Shown: in pieces, positions 14,137-22,966 of the stretch
Layout of the letters: each line of letters opens with the position of its first letter
How positions within the stretch are numbered: the stretch's first letter is position 1
Assembly: GCF_024746835.1 (NCBI RefSeq)
Contig: NZ_CP080531.1
Span: 2,356,001 to 2,420,000, forward strand
DNA: 64,000 nucleotides
From: Mesorhizobium sp. AR02
GTDB taxonomy: Bacteria > Pseudomonadota > Alphaproteobacteria > Rhizobiales > Rhizobiaceae
Direction: 5' to 3'
Notes under the pieces: generated by a model
The model's database searches: none
What the model was told of the DNA's origin: nothing
Seen by the model: the letters and a program-made list of their open reading frames with translations, nothing else
Program-made: the position numbers and the translations under genes

Positions 14137-14733
14137 ATGACGCGTCCGGGCTTGCGCTGTGTGCAGCTATTCGCGGCTTTGCTGGCCGCGAGCTGCCCGC
14201 GCGCCGAAGCTGGCGGGATCTTCGAAGCCGGCGCCTACTCCTTCTCCGACGAACGCGGCGGCTTCAGGATCCTTTCGGCCACGGGCGCCGGGACCCGCGC
14301 CGACCCGATCGTGGTCACCGAGGAACTGGACACCGCCGACCCGGTGACGCTGACCATACGGGCGGCGCGGCCGATCCAGCCCTTCGGATCGTCGGGCAAC
14401 TACGCGACCGGCTTTCTGCCGCTGAAGATCGTCGCCCGCAACAACAGCGGCGACGCCTGGATCGAATTCGGCTTCGAGCTACAGTCGATCCTGAACGTGC
14501 CGAGCGACTATGGCGACGGGCTGTCCTTCGACCAGGCACAGCGTGTGGACAACATGATCAAGTCCGACAGCTTCGCCGAATTCAAACGCGACTTCGAACC
14601 CTATGACCGGCTGCTGTTCAGCAAAGGCAAGGTCGACCCGCTGGAGAGTGCGTCGTTTTCCTTCCTGGTGACGGATTTTTCGCCGAAGGACCGGTTTTAT
14701 CTGGTGGAGGAGCCGAGGGTGCCTTCGTCTTGA
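14137..14733 (+). CDS. Secreted or lipoprotein-like hypothetical protein
   Basis: A 198-residue protein of unrecognised family. The first 25 residues look like an export signal (basic start, hydrophobic VQLFAALLAASC); AASC is lipobox-like, so lipid attachment is possible, but cleavage after RAEA by signal peptidase I is equally plausible. The rest is soluble, rich in beta-strand-type sequence, with a recurrent aromatic/acidic composition (for example GDAWIEFGFEL). It stands alone between the LacI gene and the defence island, with codon use like the chromosomal neighbours. No function is proposed. Confidence 0.65.
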   Translation: MTRPGLRCVQLFAALLAASCPRAEAGGIFEAGAYSFSDERGGFRILSATGAGTRADPIVVTEELDTADPVTLTIRAARPIQPFGSSGNYATGFLPLKIVARNNSGDAWIEFGFELQSILNVPSDYGDGLSFDQAQRVDNMIKSDSFAEFKRDFEPYDRLLFSKGKVDPLESASFSFLVTDFSPKDRFYLVEEPRVPSS

Positions 14734-14740
14734 TGGGGGG

Positions 14741-14803
14741 ATGGCTGCGGGCCAATAGGTGATTGAACAACTGAAAGCGCCGGCCGCCTGGAAGGCGCGG
14801 TAG
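14741..14803 (+). pseudogene. Relic of a LacI-family gene C-terminus
   Basis: The bases 14741-14782 match 33 of 42 positions of 13876-13917 in the intact LacI gene (MAMGQWAIEQLEAP). Translated in the same frame the relic reads MAAGQ, stop, VIEQLKAP, and a second stop follows at 14801-14803. The upstream part of the gene is absent. It is a short, mutated remnant of a related regulator gene, lying 85 bases from the left edge of the methyltransferase/Vsr/Z1 island, and may mark where DNA was lost or inserted. Confidence 0.6.
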
Positions 14804-14887
14804 CCCTTGGCGCTGGTCTGCTGAAGGCTATTGTTGAAATCATTGCCACCAGCAGAAAGTACTCCTGAGGACTAAAAACAGAAAGTG

Positions 14888-15382
14888 CTAGCCGCCAGAC
14901 CTCGATACCTCGGTGATCTCAAGGGAAAGTAAATCGTTGTCTGACCGCAGGAAGCAAACCAGTGTATCCAACACCGACTCTGCAGGCTGCCGGTTCGGCC
15001 CTCGGAGAGCGCATTCCCAGACGGTTGCCACTCGCCAACCAAACGAGACCAAGGTGTCTGTTGCCTGTCGATCGCGCTGCTGATTGTGCCCAATCTTAGC
15101 CTGCCAGAATGCGGCATTGGTACGGGGCCGGACGCCAAGGCCGCAATCGTGGCCATGCCAGAAGCAGCCATGTACAAAAATTACAACTTGGCCCGCAGAG
15201 AAAACCAAATCCGGCGTACCAGGCAAGCTACGGTCATGCAAGCGATAGCGCAGTCCCCTAGCATGTAGGCCACGTCGAATTGTCATCTCAGGCTTGGTGT
15301 CACGTCCGCGGATCCTGGACATGTTCAACCGTCGCTGGTCCGGTGTGAGTGGGTCGTCGCGGATAGCTTGGCGCCGGATCAT
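14888..15382 (-). CDS. vsr: Very short patch repair endonuclease (Vsr)
   Basis: A 164-residue Vsr protein of normal length. It has the family N-terminus RLNMSRIRGRDTKPE, the core GTPDLVF with the metal-binding Asp, VIFVHGCFWHGHDC with its His/Cys zinc-binding residues, and WRVATVWECAL near the C-terminus. Vsr nicks DNA next to T:G mismatches made when 5-methylcytosine deaminates, so repair restores C:G. The start lies 6 bases after the methyltransferase stop with a GAGG site, so the two are co-transcribed and presumably act at the same sequence. This pairing supports the methyltransferase being a C5 enzyme. Confidence 0.95.
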   Translation of the reverse strand: MIRRQAIRDDPLTPDQRRLNMSRIRGRDTKPEMTIRRGLHARGLRYRLHDRSLPGTPDLVFSAGQVVIFVHGCFWHGHDCGLGVRPRTNAAFWQAKIGHNQQRDRQATDTLVSFGWRVATVWECALRGPNRQPAESVLDTLVCFLRSDNDLLSLEITEVSRSGG

Positions 15383-15388
15383 ACAACC

Positions 15389-16879
15389 TCACGCGGCGCG
15401 GCAGCCGGCGCTTGGTCTATCATGACCTAAAGCCTCGGCGAACACCCTACCTATCTCTTCAGCCAATGCTCGTGATAGCAGCGGCGGTACAGCATTTCCG
15501 ATTTGACGGAAGGCTGCATTCATGGCCCCACGAAAAATGAAACCATCCGGAAAGGACTGTAGCCGCGCAGCCTCGCGTACGGAGATCGTGCGTGACTGGT
15601 CGCTGTCGTAGTGGATATGGCTATAACTATCTTTGCCTAGATGTGCCATCAGGGTCCGGGCGGGCAAATCCGGCTCCATTTTGCGCCACTTGTTGGGAAA
15701 TTTGCCCGTGTCATAAGGAGGCACTATAGAGGCACGGAGTTCGTGCCACGCTTGGCTGCCGGCCGGTGGTGCTGCTCCCGTGCGCGCCTTTTCCTGCGCC
15801 AGCGCTTCGCCGAACATGCGCTCGGCAACTGCATGGGCCTCAGGATACTGGTCGCCATGACTGAGGCGGCCAAACAACTTCCAGTCCCGCGGCAAATAGC
15901 GGATAACGTGATCGTAGATGCCTTCGTCATTTTCGAAGCCCGGCCACCTCCGCATAAGCTTGGCGTAGTCCGTATCCGGCTCGCCGGGATAAGGTTCCAA
16001 ACGGTCGAACCGGCGCACACTTCGGCCGATCTCGCCACGCAGATGACCGGTGATCGAAGGCAGATCTCTGAGAGCCTGGACCGCTGTCACGGCCGGCGTC
16101 AATTCCTTGTGAGATGGCTTGGCCGGGACATAACCAAGTGCCCCATCGATAAGCGCGCCCCTCAGCAATTTGAGTGCCACTTGACGGCTTCCCGCATACC
16201 CCGGCGGGAGCATCATGTAGTGAGTAGGTTCAGGGAAACAGATCTTAGCGTTCAGTTCCCGCCGGACGGCAATAAGGACCATCCGCTCACGCATTTGAGG
16301 CACGCCGTAAAACGCAGCGTTCAGAAGAGTGTATCTTACCTCGTAGCCGATCTCCTCAAGGAAGTCCCGTGTTTCCTCAGCAACGTTTTGGCCGCCGTGG
16401 TTCAGTACATCCGGTACGTTCTCCATCATCAACGCCAGCGGGAGGAAGGCCTGGACGTAGCGAAGATACTCCAAATAGAGCCGTGCGCGAGGGTCCAGCC
16501 GGAACGCCTCAGGATGTTCGGCCACTTCGCGAAGCTTAGGCCGCCCAACTCGCGCGAAAGCTTGGCACGGTGGCCCCCCAACCAGCACATCGATTGCTTG
16601 GCCAATTGGGCCGAGCTCTAGCTCGTTTGCTAGCGCCTGGGGAGTAAGTTTTGTGATATCACGAGGGCATGCATGGCGCGGATCGCCGGGATGAAAGTTG
16701 GCGCCATGGGATGCAGCAGCATCCTTGTCGAACTCAACTGCAGCAACGATCTCGAAGCCGCTGGTATGAAAGCCGAGCGACAGCCCGCCGCACCCTGAGA
16801 AAAGATCTAGCACGCGGGGACGACCACCTTGGTGAAGACGCGCTAGTCGAGCCAGGACGGTCGGATCAGGACTGATCAT
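15389..16879 (-). CDS. DNA cytosine-5 methyltransferase
   Basis: A 496-residue C5 methyltransferase. Motif I VLDLFSGCGGLSLGF (about residues 23-37) binds S-adenosylmethionine, motif IV GGPPCQAFARVG holds the catalytic Cys, motif VI is ENVPDVL, motif VIII QMRERMVLIAVRR, and motif X includes QIGNAVPPLL. The variable target-recognition part lies between about residues 240 and 400; the recognised sequence cannot be read. The open frame begins at a TTG at 16891, but the ATG at 16879 with GAAGG upstream is preferred. It pairs with vsr and is divergent from the ATPase/Z1/nuclease operon, where it could protect host DNA. Confidence 0.93.
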   Translation of the reverse strand: MISPDPTVLARLARLHQGGRPRVLDLFSGCGGLSLGFHTSGFEIVAAVEFDKDAAASHGANFHPGDPRHACPRDITKLTPQALANELELGPIGQAIDVLVGGPPCQAFARVGRPKLREVAEHPEAFRLDPRARLYLEYLRYVQAFLPLALMMENVPDVLNHGGQNVAEETRDFLEEIGYEVRYTLLNAAFYGVPQMRERMVLIAVRRELNAKICFPEPTHYMMLPPGYAGSRQVALKLLRGALIDGALGYVPAKPSHKELTPAVTAVQALRDLPSITGHLRGEIGRSVRRFDRLEPYPGEPDTDYAKLMRRWPGFENDEGIYDHVIRYLPRDWKLFGRLSHGDQYPEAHAVAERMFGEALAQEKARTGAAPPAGSQAWHELRASIVPPYDTGKFPNKWRKMEPDLPARTLMAHLGKDSYSHIHYDSDQSRTISVREAARLQSFPDGFIFRGAMNAAFRQIGNAVPPLLSRALAEEIGRVFAEALGHDRPSAGCRAA

Positions 16880-17171
16880 CGGCGCCTTCAACTGGAATTC
16901 CCATCCGTATAGTCTGGTTCATTGATTCGAACTCCAACTGAGAGTTGAGGGGTGGCGGCTTAAACGTCAACAGACTTGTCCACCTTGGCCGCCATCGGAT
17001 CTAACCCATCATCTGGGCAAAGATGGCTGGGCACAAGACAGAGTCTTCGCGTATTCATCCCGATGTCCTAGTTGCATAGCTATCGGCGCGAGCCATCAAG
17101 GATTGTGGCCCTCGGCCAATTTCGCCTATGGTCCAAGCGAAACAAAGCTGGACAAGGCACTGAGGGGGCCG
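16880..17171. promoter_or_regulatory. Divergent promoter region of the two island operons
   Basis: About 290 bases separate the methyltransferase start (minus) and the ATPase start (plus). A small inverted repeat CAACT-GAG-AGTTG lies at 16935-16947, near where the methyltransferase promoter should be. No helix-turn-helix controller gene is present in the island, so control by the methyltransferase or by methylation of this region is possible but not shown. Clear -35/-10 pairs were not identified. Confidence 0.35.
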
Positions 17172-19187
17172 ATGAAATTCCTAATCCTGAGGCAGCTGCA
17201 GCACAGTGAATTGGGTATGTTCCATGCCTATCGCCGCAGTGGCCGTGAGGGATCGCGTCAGCGCGCCATCAACTTCGACGGCGAGGTCGTCGATCGAGTG
17301 TTCCCTGTTGCGGAGGATACTGACCGGATCGCCTTAAATCTGCGGTACGACACCGATGAAGGTCCGCTGGCCCTGAACTATTTCCTGAAACGACAGGGAA
17401 AAAACTGGCGGCTTGAGGGCAACTGCCCTGAGGACCAGCTTTACCACTTCGTCGAGCCGGACTGCTTGTTCGCCATGGAGGTGGACGCCGGCGTCCAACC
17501 AGCTGTGGGAGCGTGGGTGGTCTTTCCCCGAGACGATCCTACGGCTTTAGCCATTCTTGCGGATGGCGCTACGTCCGGCTTGGCACGCGCCAGCATGATC
17601 GCCCTCGAAGTGTACGAGGCGCCGCGCATCCACAAGTTTTTGACCCAGGCCCGGCCGGACTTATTTAACGCCCCAAGTTTGCAGGATCTCGATATGACCA
17701 ACACTACTTTCCCACCTGAACCCGTCGAAAGCCCCAAGCCTGCAGGGCGTCGCCTGCCGCCTGGTCCAACACGACTGCCGACTATGCTCAGTGCCTCTGG
17801 CCACAACTTTGTCAGCGCCGTCGCAGACATCATCGACAACGCCATCTCAGCCGACGCGACCGAGATCCAGATCACCTTCGATCCGCCCAACAGTGGCAAC
17901 GGCCGCTGGATGACTATCCGCGATAACGGCCGTGGCATGTCGTCGGAGCAACTGGAAGAGGCGATACGGATTGGCGGAGAAGCTGACTATGACGGCCGGA
18001 GCCTCGGCAAATACGGCTTCGGTCTGAAGGGCGCCTCCTGGTCTCAGGCCCGCAATTTCAAGGTAGTGACGCGCCAGAAGGGTGGGGAAGTCCATCACCT
18101 CGGCTGGGATCAGGATACCATGGTGGACTGGCAGGTCGACGAGAGACCCCTGGAAGACTGGGAAGTCAGAGCTACTGATCCGGGTGAACATGGCACGGTG
18201 GTACTTTGGAAGAATATGAAGGCGCCGACAACGGCGCCGTCGATCAAGGGGGTGTCGCCTCATGTCGCTGAGATCCAGGAACTTAACCGGCATCTGGGCT
18301 TAGTCTTCCACCGCTTCCTGGATGGCGACGCCAAGGGGCGGGCGCCGCTCAAGATATGGATCAACAACATCCCAGTCGAAAGCAACGGGCCGGCCGGCCA
18401 TCCGCTCAGTGAGCGTCATGACCTCAAAACGCTGAAAGTTGAGCATGAAGGCGGCTCGGCGGAGGTGAAGGTTCAGCCAATCGTGCTGCCGTCAGAGGAC
18501 GAACTCCGTAAGCACCATGGGGGTGGATGGCAGGCGGCCACCGACCGCATTGGCTATTGGGGTAGACGCAACGACACTCAGGGATTGTTCCTGTATCGCA
18601 ATGACCGCCTGATCCGCTGGGGCGGTTGGCATGACCTTTGGGCCACTAATGACGAGAAGACCAAGCTAGCGCGGGTTCTCGTCGATTTTGATCCGGCATT
18701 GGACGAAGCCTTTCAGATCAACATTTCCAAGCAGACCGTCCGCCTGCCGGGCTACCTTCAGAGCCGGATCAAGCCGCTGGCGGATACGGTACGCAAGGCC
18801 AGCCAGGCCAAGTACCGCAAGTCTCGACCGACGCCGCCGCCGCGCGCCTTGCCGCTCCAGGTCGGACCGGCGTCCGAACCTGGAGCATTTAGCGAACCAA
18901 GCGGACCAGCGGTACCAGGTGCCTCAACGCCGCCGCCCCAACCTCCAGCGCCCACGCCGCCCATCACGGTGCGCAAAGTAACGACCGGCAAGTTCGCCTG
19001 GAGGATCGCGACAGATCTGAGGGGCAGCCGCAGTCTCCAGATTGGCGACGTAAGTCCGGCCCTCGTCGAATTGGCCAGCGCGCTCGGCACCAGCGATGTG
19101 GGCACAGAGGCGCTAGCAGCGTTCCTGGAGGAGCTTGATCGTCTCGACTTGCAGCAGATGCTAATCGACGACGCAGCTGACGCATGA
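17172..19187 (+). CDS. GHKL (MORC/MutL-like) ATPase of a restriction/defence operon
   Basis: A 671-residue protein. After a 200-residue N-terminal region of unknown fold comes a GHKL ATPase: N-box ADIIDNAISADA (about residue 218), IRDNGRGM (about 250) and GKYGFGLKGAS (about 279). The N-box has Asp where most GHKL ATPases have the catalytic Glu. A proline-rich linker (ASTPPPQPPAPTPP) precedes a short C-terminal domain. Families like this, related to MORC and MutL, occur with Z1 and DUF4420-type genes in restriction-like defence loci, where ATP-driven clamp closure on DNA is the likely role. The ATG at 17172 with GAGGGGG upstream is chosen; the frame also has a TTG at 17103. The stop overlaps the next gene (ATGA). 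Confidence 0.88.
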   Translation: MKFLILRQLQHSELGMFHAYRRSGREGSRQRAINFDGEVVDRVFPVAEDTDRIALNLRYDTDEGPLALNYFLKRQGKNWRLEGNCPEDQLYHFVEPDCLFAMEVDAGVQPAVGAWVVFPRDDPTALAILADGATSGLARASMIALEVYEAPRIHKFLTQARPDLFNAPSLQDLDMTNTTFPPEPVESPKPAGRRLPPGPTRLPTMLSASGHNFVSAVADIIDNAISADATEIQITFDPPNSGNGRWMTIRDNGRGMSSEQLEEAIRIGGEADYDGRSLGKYGFGLKGASWSQARNFKVVTRQKGGEVHHLGWDQDTMVDWQVDERPLEDWEVRATDPGEHGTVVLWKNMKAPTTAPSIKGVSPHVAEIQELNRHLGLVFHRFLDGDAKGRAPLKIWINNIPVESNGPAGHPLSERHDLKTLKVEHEGGSAEVKVQPIVLPSEDELRKHHGGGWQAATDRIGYWGRRNDTQGLFLYRNDRLIRWGGWHDLWATNDEKTKLARVLVDFDPALDEAFQINISKQTVRLPGYLQSRIKPLADTVRKASQAKYRKSRPTPPPRALPLQVGPASEPGAFSEPSGPAVPGASTPPPQPPAPTPPITVRKVTTGKFAWRIATDLRGSRSLQIGDVSPALVELASALGTSDVGTEALAAFLEELDRLDLQQMLIDDAADA

Positions 19188-21532
19188 GCTCGCCGCGCAC
19201 GCAGGAATTGCGCGCAGCGCGCGTCAACTGGACAGATAGTCTTTCCGAGGTTGAGGAAGGGAACTGGACGCGGCTTGAGCACCGGCTCCTCGCCAGCGCA
19301 CGGTGGAGGGCGCCGCAGGTAGCGAGCTTGGCATCGGAGTCGGCACGAGTCCTGAGACATCTGCCAGATCCGCGGCAGGAAGCGCCGTTCCAAGGGCGTG
19401 GGCTGGTGGTAGGATATGTCCAGAGCGGCAAGACCGCGAACTATACAGCTTTGGCGGCGCGCGCCGTCGACGCTGGCTATAGACTGGTAATCGTGCTGTC
19501 AGGCATCCACGACGCCCTACGCAGCCAGACGCAGCTCCGGCTCGAGGACGAGCTCGTCGGGCGCGGCGACCCCGGTGGCCCGGCCTGGACCGTGCTCACG
19601 GGAGAGACGCAGGATTTTAAGGATCCGGGCGCGGAAGTCCTCGACCGAGCCGGCGCGTTCCTGATCGTGGCTAAGAAGAACGTCTCCATACTCCGCCGGA
19701 TAGACGCTTGGCTTGAGGCGGCGGCCGAGAGGCTTGACCGTATGCCGGTCCTGGTTATCGACGATGAGGCCGATCAGGCCTCTATCAATACTCGTGGCAA
19801 CCGCGCGCCCGACCCGTCGCTGGATTCCGATGCTGTTGCCGCCGCCACGGGCTTAGGCCCGACAGCCACTAATTCAATGATTCGCTCAATCCTCGGGCGT
19901 GCATCCCAGGCAGCTTATGTAGCTTATACTGCAACCCCATTCGCCAATATCTTCATTGACCCCGATGCGGTCGACCGGGAGGTCGGCGAGGACCTCTTTC
20001 CCCGGGACTTCGCTCTCCAGCTGCCCAGACCCGAGGGCTACACAGGAACCGAAGAGCTGTTCGGCGTCTCCGCCCAGAGACGCGATGTCTTTCGGCAAGT
20101 CCGCGACGAGGACGTGGGCGAACTTCGCCAGGCGATGACGCGGCGAACGTCCGCGCCAGTGATCGTCGGTCCACAGAACCAACTACTGCCCGATTCCCTG
20201 GCCGAGGCCCTCGTCGCCTTCTGTATCGCCGCAGCCATCCGCGAGGGTCGGCCAAGCCTTCAGGGCAAGCCCCACACCATGCTCGTTCATGTCAGCGTGC
20301 GGGTCGAAGACCAAGCGCGAGTCCGAGCAGCGATTGAGTATCAGTTGAGTTACTGGCTGGAAGCACGCCGCCAGGGCCATAACTTGGCAGACCTGTTCGG
20401 AGAGGTGCTAAAGCAGCACTTCAGTGGCGTCGAGCTACCAGCCGGGCCTTTGGTGACTGTGGAGGCCGCGATAGCGGTAATTGAACGACTGGCAGTCGTC
20501 GAACTGAACAGCGTCACGGGCGAGAATCTCGAATACACCGAAAGGCCTGGTCGTCACATCGTCGCGGTTGGAGGTAACCGCCTGTCGCGCGGCCTGACGC
20601 TGGAGGGTCTGACCATCTCCTACTTCCTGCGAACGGCTTCCATGGCCGACACCCTACTGCAGATGGCGCGCTGGTATGGCTTCCGCTCTGGATATGAGGA
20701 TCTTATCCGAATCTGGACTACAGACGGGATCGCCCAATGGTTCACCGAGTTGGCGCTGGTTGAGGAGTCCTTGCGTGACAGCCTCCATGCCCTCTACAGG
20801 GCCGGTCGCCGGCCATCCGAGATGGCGATTCGCCTGCGCGCTCACAGCGCGCTGCTGCTCACCGCACGCAACAAGTCGGGCATGGCGGACGCGCTGCGTC
20901 AGTCATGGTCGGGTGAACATCCGCAGACGGTGATCTTGCCGCTACACGACCAAGCGCGGCTGAAGGCGAATCGAATCCTGGCGGATCGGCTAATAGCGCT
21001 GTGTGGTCCGGCCCAAGAAATGGCTGGCAGCCGGCTGTTCCGTGACCTGCCTCCAGAGATCGTCTGCGACTTCTTGCGCGCCTATCAGCCGCATCCGGAC
21101 GCTTTCGCGATGCGCGGCGACGAAATCGCCGACTGGATCATGCAGCGGGTGGCCGAAGGAGAACTGGTTGACTGGTCCGTACTCCTGGCCGGCGCCCGCA
21201 GCGCGACTATCAAGGTGGGGGGCGTCGAGACCGGTTTGGTGACCCGACGGCGCACGAGTAGCGAGAGCATTGGCATTCTGATCGATCCAAGACACGAGGG
21301 GGCGGATCTGCCAGGTGGCGCCGATGCCTATCGCCGAGCATCGGGCAACTACGACGCCGATGCCATGCGTTCCGCCAGGCCTTCCACCCAAGGGCTGCTT
21401 ATGATTTACCCGCTGGACCCGTCGATCCTCGACGTCGAAGGCGTGGACGCAGTGATCGCAACCGCGCTGAGTCTTCCCTACACCTCGGATGGGCGCTCTA
21501 GCACCCTCGTTAACCGGGGCGTCGGTGAATGA
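19184..21532 (+). CDS. Z1-domain protein (superfamily II helicase-like ATPase)
   Basis: A 782-residue Z1-domain protein. Walker A VGYVQSGKT lies near residue 75, the Walker B box VIDDEADQA near 190, YTATPFANIF near 245 (motif III-like), and SRGLTLEG with QMARWYGFR near 470-495 match the C-terminal helicase-like motifs. The Z1 family is found with MORC/MutL-like ATPases and DUF4420 nucleases; it is thought to move on or remodel DNA in restriction. Both ends overlap neighbours by four bases (ATGA), so the three genes are translated as a unit, suggesting a complex. The C-terminal 250 residues are of unknown function. Confidence 0.9.
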   Translation: MSSPRTQELRAARVNWTDSLSEVEEGNWTRLEHRLLASARWRAPQVASLASESARVLRHLPDPRQEAPFQGRGLVVGYVQSGKTANYTALAARAVDAGYRLVIVLSGIHDALRSQTQLRLEDELVGRGDPGGPAWTVLTGETQDFKDPGAEVLDRAGAFLIVAKKNVSILRRIDAWLEAAAERLDRMPVLVIDDEADQASINTRGNRAPDPSLDSDAVAAATGLGPTATNSMIRSILGRASQAAYVAYTATPFANIFIDPDAVDREVGEDLFPRDFALQLPRPEGYTGTEELFGVSAQRRDVFRQVRDEDVGELRQAMTRRTSAPVIVGPQNQLLPDSLAEALVAFCIAAAIREGRPSLQGKPHTMLVHVSVRVEDQARVRAAIEYQLSYWLEARRQGHNLADLFGEVLKQHFSGVELPAGPLVTVEAAIAVIERLAVVELNSVTGENLEYTERPGRHIVAVGGNRLSRGLTLEGLTISYFLRTASMADTLLQMARWYGFRSGYEDLIRIWTTDGIAQWFTELALVEESLRDSLHALYRAGRRPSEMAIRLRAHSALLLTARNKSGMADALRQSWSGEHPQTVILPLHDQARLKANRILADRLIALCGPAQEMAGSRLFRDLPPEIVCDFLRAYQPHPDAFAMRGDEIADWIMQRVAEGELVDWSVLLAGARSATIKVGGVETGLVTRRRTSSESIGILIDPRHEGADLPGGADAYRRASGNYDADAMRSARPSTQGLLMIYPLDPSILDVEGVDAVIATALSLPYTSDGRSSTLVNRGVGE

Positions 21533-22509
21533 CGGCGACATTCGTCGAAACCTGGCGGGCTCTCAGGACTACGCGTCCCGTCGGGGAAGATCAGATCCAG
21601 TCCGCCGCTATCGTTCACGACAATGCGGAGACACCACTGCGGCTCGCCATAGACGCCTCCGGCGACCTGCACCTGCTAGCTCCCACCTTGGGACCGCCGC
21701 GACGCCCGGTTCCACCAGACTACAACGGCCTTCGCCTGCGTGAGAGCCGCTTGGACGAGCAAGCCTGCCTCGATCTCTGCTCGCCCGCCGCTAATGAGAA
21801 AATGTTCGCCGCTCTCTGCGACGAACTAGTGGAAGCCATTGTGATTGAGAGGCGTGACCCCTGGGCTGCGGCCATAGCCATAGTGCGCGCCTGGCAGTCC
21901 GCATGGCGACCGCTGCGTCAGCCGATGTCGCGTCCAGTCCAGATAGGTCTGGCTGGTGAACTGCTAGTGCTGCAATCACTCTGGCTGCCCGCTTTGGGAT
22001 CGGAAGCTGTCCACTTGTGGAGCGGACCCGATCGCGAGCGACATGATTTCGTGAGCTTTCGCCTGCACATGGAGGTCAAGGCCACAACGAGGAGTCGGCA
22101 TGAGCACGACATTTCCCGAGTTGACCAGCTAAGGGCGCCCGAAAATCGCCGTCTGCTGTTTGCCTCGATCCAATTGGAGGAGTCGGTGATGGGTGCTCAA
22201 TCTGTTTGTTCCTTGATTGATGGGGTAATGGACGCAATCCGGCATGATCCAGCGGCCGTCGACGGTTTTCTGACTAAGCTCGACAGCCTGGACTGGTCCG
22301 ATGAGATGAGACGCTCGCCAGATTTGGTTCGCTTTCATATCAGGGATGCGCAGATCTTCGAGGTAGACGAGGAATTTCCGCAACTGCCGCCTGATTTCAC
22401 CATGCCAAATGGCGTGCTGGCGATCCGTTACACGATCAGCTTGGCCAACCTGCCTTACCTAGACGTGGGAACGGTCCGAGAGGATATAGCCCAAGCGGTC
22501 GCACCCTAA
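21529..22509 (+). CDS. PD-(D/E)XK nuclease-like protein (DUF4420 type)
   Basis: A 326-residue protein whose central region fits a restriction-endonuclease fold: GELLVLQSLW with Glu near residue 143, Asp in RHDFVSF near 172, and EVKATTR (ExK) near 182-184 as metal/catalytic residues. This matches the DUF4420 family found after Z1 genes. It is the probable DNA-cutting component, with the GHKL and Z1 ATPases as activators. It overlaps the Z1 stop by four bases. In related loci an AIPR-family gene often follows; here the operon ends and 225 bases without any gene lead to tRNA-Arg. Nuclease activity is inferred from motifs. Confidence 0.85.
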   Translation: MTATFVETWRALRTTRPVGEDQIQSAAIVHDNAETPLRLAIDASGDLHLLAPTLGPPRRPVPPDYNGLRLRESRLDEQACLDLCSPAANEKMFAALCDELVEAIVIERRDPWAAAIAIVRAWQSAWRPLRQPMSRPVQIGLAGELLVLQSLWLPALGSEAVHLWSGPDRERHDFVSFRLHMEVKATTRSRHEHDISRVDQLRAPENRRLLFASIQLEESVMGAQSVCSLIDGVMDAIRHDPAAVDGFLTKLDSLDWSDEMRRSPDLVRFHIRDAQIFEVDEEFPQLPPDFTMPNGVLAIRYTISLANLPYLDVGTVREDIAQAVAP

Positions 22510-22734
22510 CGTTGGAACCGCACCTGATCGCGGAAGATCGCCATCCAAACGGGACCTGCCACTTGATTCAAAGTGGGCAATCCCCTGATGCTGAAGGGCG
22601 AAAGTTGAGGGCTAAAGCGCTAAACAGATCGGTTTCGAACCAAAGCAGAATGCCAATTGCCAGTGGGGCCACCGCGCTAAGAGTCGCTTGGCATCAGTGA
22701 TGATCAGCCCAGGTAGTTTTGTTGGAACTCAATT

Positions 22735-22811
<77 letters not shown>

Positions 22812-22966
22812 TTTCCGACAATCCGGAAAACGAACCAGCCGGTGAACCGGCAAGTCACGGCTTCTTAGCGGAAGCTGGGGCGGGCTTCAACGGGCAATTG
22901 GCGATTGTGCAGCGTCCAGTGGGACGGTTGGTCCTCTGACGGGTGCGCTTGTTGGATATGGCGCTC

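Follow-up and report, generated by a model that had tools for sequence, protein, structure and literature searches.

A B3 domain fused to a MORC ATPase in an AIPR-free five-gene locus of Mesorhizobium sp. AR02: a predicted ATP-dependent restriction-modification system

Introduction

Does a compact set of five genes in Mesorhizobium sp. AR02, encoding a MORC-like ATPase, a helicase, a nuclease, a methyltransferase and Vsr, make up a restriction-modification (RM) system that works without an AIPR protein? The locus lies in a stretch of 64,000 nucleotides (contig NZ_CP080531.1, positions 2,356,001 to 2,420,000), hereafter the window, whose own coordinates are used below. A first-pass annotation of the sequence had named a MORC-like ATPase, a Z1 protein, a DUF4420 nuclease, a C5 methyltransferase and Vsr, and these assignments were borne out by matches to PF10593, PF14390, PF00145 and TIGR00632. 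It had also seen no AIPR gene, in agreement with Pfam, and had proposed a self-contained five-gene restriction variant. Of this proposal, the AIPR-free organization held across a whole clade with its motifs kept; however, the gene set proved to be a known one, and a B3 domain had been overlooked. We consider it likely, at a probability of about 0.72, that the five genes form an ATP-dependent RM system in which the MORC subunit reads an unmethylated site; restriction is predicted.

The MORC subunit carries a predicted B3 domain

The MORC protein (671 aa; 17172..19187, + strand) has an extra N-terminal domain of ~165 residues. This B3/EcoRII-N-like domain (residues 1–165; 17172..17666, +) is the predicted DNA-recognition domain. 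When modelled alone, its predicted fold matched the B3/EcoRII-N recognition domains of BfiI, LlaJI.R1 and EcoRII-N. It is followed by a MORC GHKL and S5 ATPase module (residues 196–552; 17757..18827, +), for which the structure search gave a MORC fold match. The S5 signature GhXhhpXXRhl is present as GLFLYRNDRLI (residues 471–481), and G471, R476, R479 and L480 were invariant in the aligned MORCs (32/32 from the clade described below and 21/21 short MORCs). A small C-terminal domain (residues 598–671; 18963..19184, +) was delimited from the structure model and the alignment. The model places three strands before helices there, with a mean predicted local distance difference test score (pLDDT) of 77–91 at residues 591–660 and 82 at residues 661–670, and the domain is partly conserved in the clade alignment. 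An antisense tRNA-Pro called by ARAGORN within the MORC gene (17679-17771) had no Rfam support and is probably a false positive.

The partner proteins retain their motifs

The MORC gene is followed by the gene for an SF2 helicase with a DThhQXuRhFG domain (19184..21532, +; PF10593, E 2.6e-60). With the exception of T490, the tested positions of its Walker A, DDEAD, TAT and DTxxQxxRWYG motifs were invariant in 31/31 clade members. The domain motif occurs in an altered form, DTLLQMARWYG: its F is Y in all 31 clade members and F in 22/22 short-MORC loci, and 17 of the 31 have A or S in place of its T. The last gene of the operon encodes a 326-aa DUF4420 nuclease of the PD-(D/E)XK type (21529..22509, +; PF14390, E 1.2e-69). 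Its restriction-fold E-D-ExK motif, identified as a sequence motif, consists of E144, D173, E182 and K184. These residues were invariant in 29/29 clade members; signs of an inactive nuclease site, named in the first-pass annotation as evidence against a self-contained variant, were not seen at this level.

The C5-cytosine DNA methyltransferase (15389..16891, − strand, with a TTG start as listed; PF00145, E 6.8e-59) shows a GGPPCQ motif in its translation. Vsr, the very short patch repair endonuclease (14888..15382, −; TIGR00632, PF03852), scored 148.2 bits with TIGR00632, above the curated cut-off of 97.85. In the proposed mechanism, the B3 domain would read the unmethylated site and the five-gene set would act as an energy-driven machine that cuts foreign DNA.

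Loci of the B3-MORC clade lack AIPR

The B3 domain marks one MORC clade, represented by 33 distinct loci including the window. AIPR was found beside the B3-MORC gene in none of the 33, five of which lie on contigs that end too early to tell; AIPR adjoins MORC in 20/22 short-MORC loci. The fused B3 domain and the absence of AIPR define a distinct branch of a known kind of gene set. Members occur in Pseudomonadota, Acidobacteriota and Myxococcota and in one metagenome-assembled genome of Nitrospiraceae. No AIPR gene was found anywhere in 28 of the 31 other clade genomes retrieved with the MORC alignment (some are drafts), nor in a further clade genome, G263. A C5 methyltransferase was present within the fetched stretch in 31/33 loci, the exceptions being L003 and L009. 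L075 (NZ_OW485605.1 13666-29684), a copy of the system on a plasmid, has a DUF3883 protein between nuclease and methyltransferase.

The sole AIPR gene of the Mesorhizobium sp. AR02 genome sits in a second, MZA-like locus ~278 kb upstream (G000:C2:2083142-2092488; L002:2143-11489). After it lie two genes of 280 and 923 aa, both uncharacterised and without a match in NCBIfam or PADLOC, and, by eye, a serine-recombinase-like open reading frame.

The same B3 subtype occurs outside MORC proteins

Whole-genome searches with a B3 domain profile (346 genomes of the family, 398 of the phylum and 318 of the class, in overlapping sets) matched 7 distinct genomes. Three have the B3-MORC form (the window, G611 and G263). 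In G429 (L062), B3 is a free 182-aa gene, flanked by the methyltransferase and Vsr genes, that adjoins a short-MORC operon; methyltransferase, B3 and Vsr form one operon there (L062:5917-8462), possibly the arrangement that preceded the fusion. In G994 (L076) and G684 (L077), B3 forms part of a McrB-like AAA protein, whose partner is McrC-like (DUF2357/PDDEXK_7). In G469 (L078), it is on a 649-aa protein without a Pfam match that adjoins a HerA-like DUF87 ATPase and a window-type C5 methyltransferase (L078:989-6239), which looks like another uncharacterised RM arrangement driven by nucleoside triphosphates. A protein search with the L076 domain found this subtype also on HNH endonucleases.

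All 7 genomes have a window-type C5 methyltransferase and Vsr in the fetched stretch, the six other methyltransferases scoring 419–630 bits against that of the window. Among 28 loci of a DUF4420 survey that have a matched methyltransferase but not such a B3 (L002 included), it was window-type in two, L002 (485 bits) and L042 (588 bits); the remaining 26 scored 26–140 bits.

Weighing of alternative explanations

Several observations weigh against a B3-guided RM system. Foldseek E-values for the B3-like domain were 0.008 and up, and its identity to the listed solved B3 domains is 4–14%. The L002 and L042 methyltransferases, 52% and 58% identical to the window type, occur without a detectable B3. 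When distances were compared, the value was 0.88 for B3 and methyltransferase vs 0.96–0.97 for B3 and its operon partners, which indicates no closer tie to the methyltransferase. Vsr was seen in only 23/33 clade loci, and the nearest relative, L003, has no methyltransferase within 10 kb (one that is 79% identical appears ~18.6 kb away). In addition, the link between fused B3 and missing AIPR may rest on a single event, because both map to one branch.

The L003 locus also speaks for an unlikely alternative, a modification-dependent (type IV-like) system in which B3 would read DNA that is methylated or otherwise modified, and the neighbouring methyltransferase would serve a different purpose. 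McrB relatives do read modified bases, by other N-terminal domains, according to the available text of PMC7680126. However, with the adjoining C5 methyltransferase, nearly constant in the clade, such a system would turn on its own cell, and the restriction B3 domains examined, those of EcoRII-N, BfiI, NgoAVII (with cognate DNA) and LlaJI.R1, are site readers. Slightly less probable again is that B3-MORC acts at its site chiefly by condensing or silencing the incoming DNA, with the nuclease as a back-up. Such a system would be closer to eukaryotic MORCs; the MORC fold match fits it, and Caenorhabditis elegans MORC-1 is reported, in the available part of PMC8277788, to entrap and condense DNA topologically. 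Less probable still is an MZA system that lost AIPR and has either decayed or relies on the AIPR gene of the second locus: the window proteins do fall far below the NCBIfam MzaB/C/D cut-offs, but low scores do not mean decay because the second locus also falls below them, and the clade keeps its catalytic motifs across several phyla, mostly in genomes without AIPR.

The five genes fill an insertion at a tRNA-Arg gene

The predicted RM system occupies an inserted segment (14730..22734, no strand assigned) that adjoins the 3′ end of a tRNA-Arg (CCG) gene (22735..22811, −; ARAGORN; Rfam RF00005, 71.6 bits at 22738-22811), position 22735 being the end of this gene. In the congener G443 (L069), the flanks aligning to 14729 and 22735 are 92 bp apart, vs 8005 bp in Mesorhizobium sp. 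AR02. The five genes alone fill the segment, with no space left for an integrase gene. Between 14650-14900 and 22500-22830, no exact direct repeat of at least 10 bp was found, nor was an att-like repeat seen. GC content within the insertion is 0.58–0.63, which is weak evidence because other parts of the window also drop to 0.59–0.60. The divergent methyltransferase and MORC genes are separated by an intergenic region (16892..17171, no strand) delimited by reading the sequence; no sigma-70-type promoter match was found in 14700-22900.

Two further congeners were examined at the same tRNA-Arg site. L070 (4285-11220) carries a C5 methyltransferase fused to a helix-turn-helix, together with Vsr and an EcoRII-C nuclease. 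Its other genes include one for a 622-aa protein that matched no Pfam family and shares weak similarity (E 3e-8) with a 612-aa protein from L065; by eye, this is possibly another GHKL-type RM family. L071 carries an N6 methyltransferase adjoining a 339-aa gene without a Pfam match, a type I-like cargo by gene arrangement. Because the cargo differs, the site appears to be a hot spot for RM systems.

Comparison with known systems

Published systems are compared here as described in the available parts of the cited papers. The gene set as such was already known from Iyer, Abhiman and Aravind 2008 (PMC2292703), and from MZA and Miller et al. 2022 (PMC9523054). The third MORC operon type of Iyer et al. 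combines a MORC with the S5 signature, an SF2 helicase with DThhQXuRhFG and an E-D-ExK restriction-fold nuclease, often with a cytosine methylase and Vsr; the window shares all of these. For MORCs of a different type, that text mentions that some have a VP1/RAV domain nearby on a protein of its own; it describes no B3-MORC fusion and sets apart no AIPR-free clade.

MZA (mzaABCDE; PMC9523054, PADLOC and NCBIfam models) likewise has MzaB, MzaC and MzaD in one operon. Profile comparison, as the first-pass annotation had suggested, found their homologues in the window with PADLOC (E 2e-41, 3.9e-96 and 1.1e-6) and NCBIfam (E 6.3e-49, 5.1e-114 and 3.2e-16; scores of 167, 382 and 59 bits against curated cut-offs of 850, 1500 and 420). 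The AIPR protein MzaE has no counterpart at the locus. No sigma-factor family, as expected for MzaA, was among the Pfam matches of the five genes and three neighbouring genes, which weighs little because mzaA occurs in few type II systems of PMC9523054.

In CglI/NgoAVII (PMC4267653), B3 is fused to a PLD nuclease in a three-gene system without MORC, whereas the window has a DUF4420 nuclease and B3 on MORC. LlaJI, a characterised McrB-like RM system whose N-terminal B3 domain reads the site (PMC7680126, PMC1459862), resembles the window in that the NTPase subunit starts with B3 and C5 methyltransferases accompany it; its McrB-like AAA+ protein and McrC-like nuclease are not among the Pfam matches of the five window genes. 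Literature searches that covered the text of open-licence papers (figures and supplements excepted) gave no description of B3 fused to MORC, and this fusion appears to be what is new in the window system.
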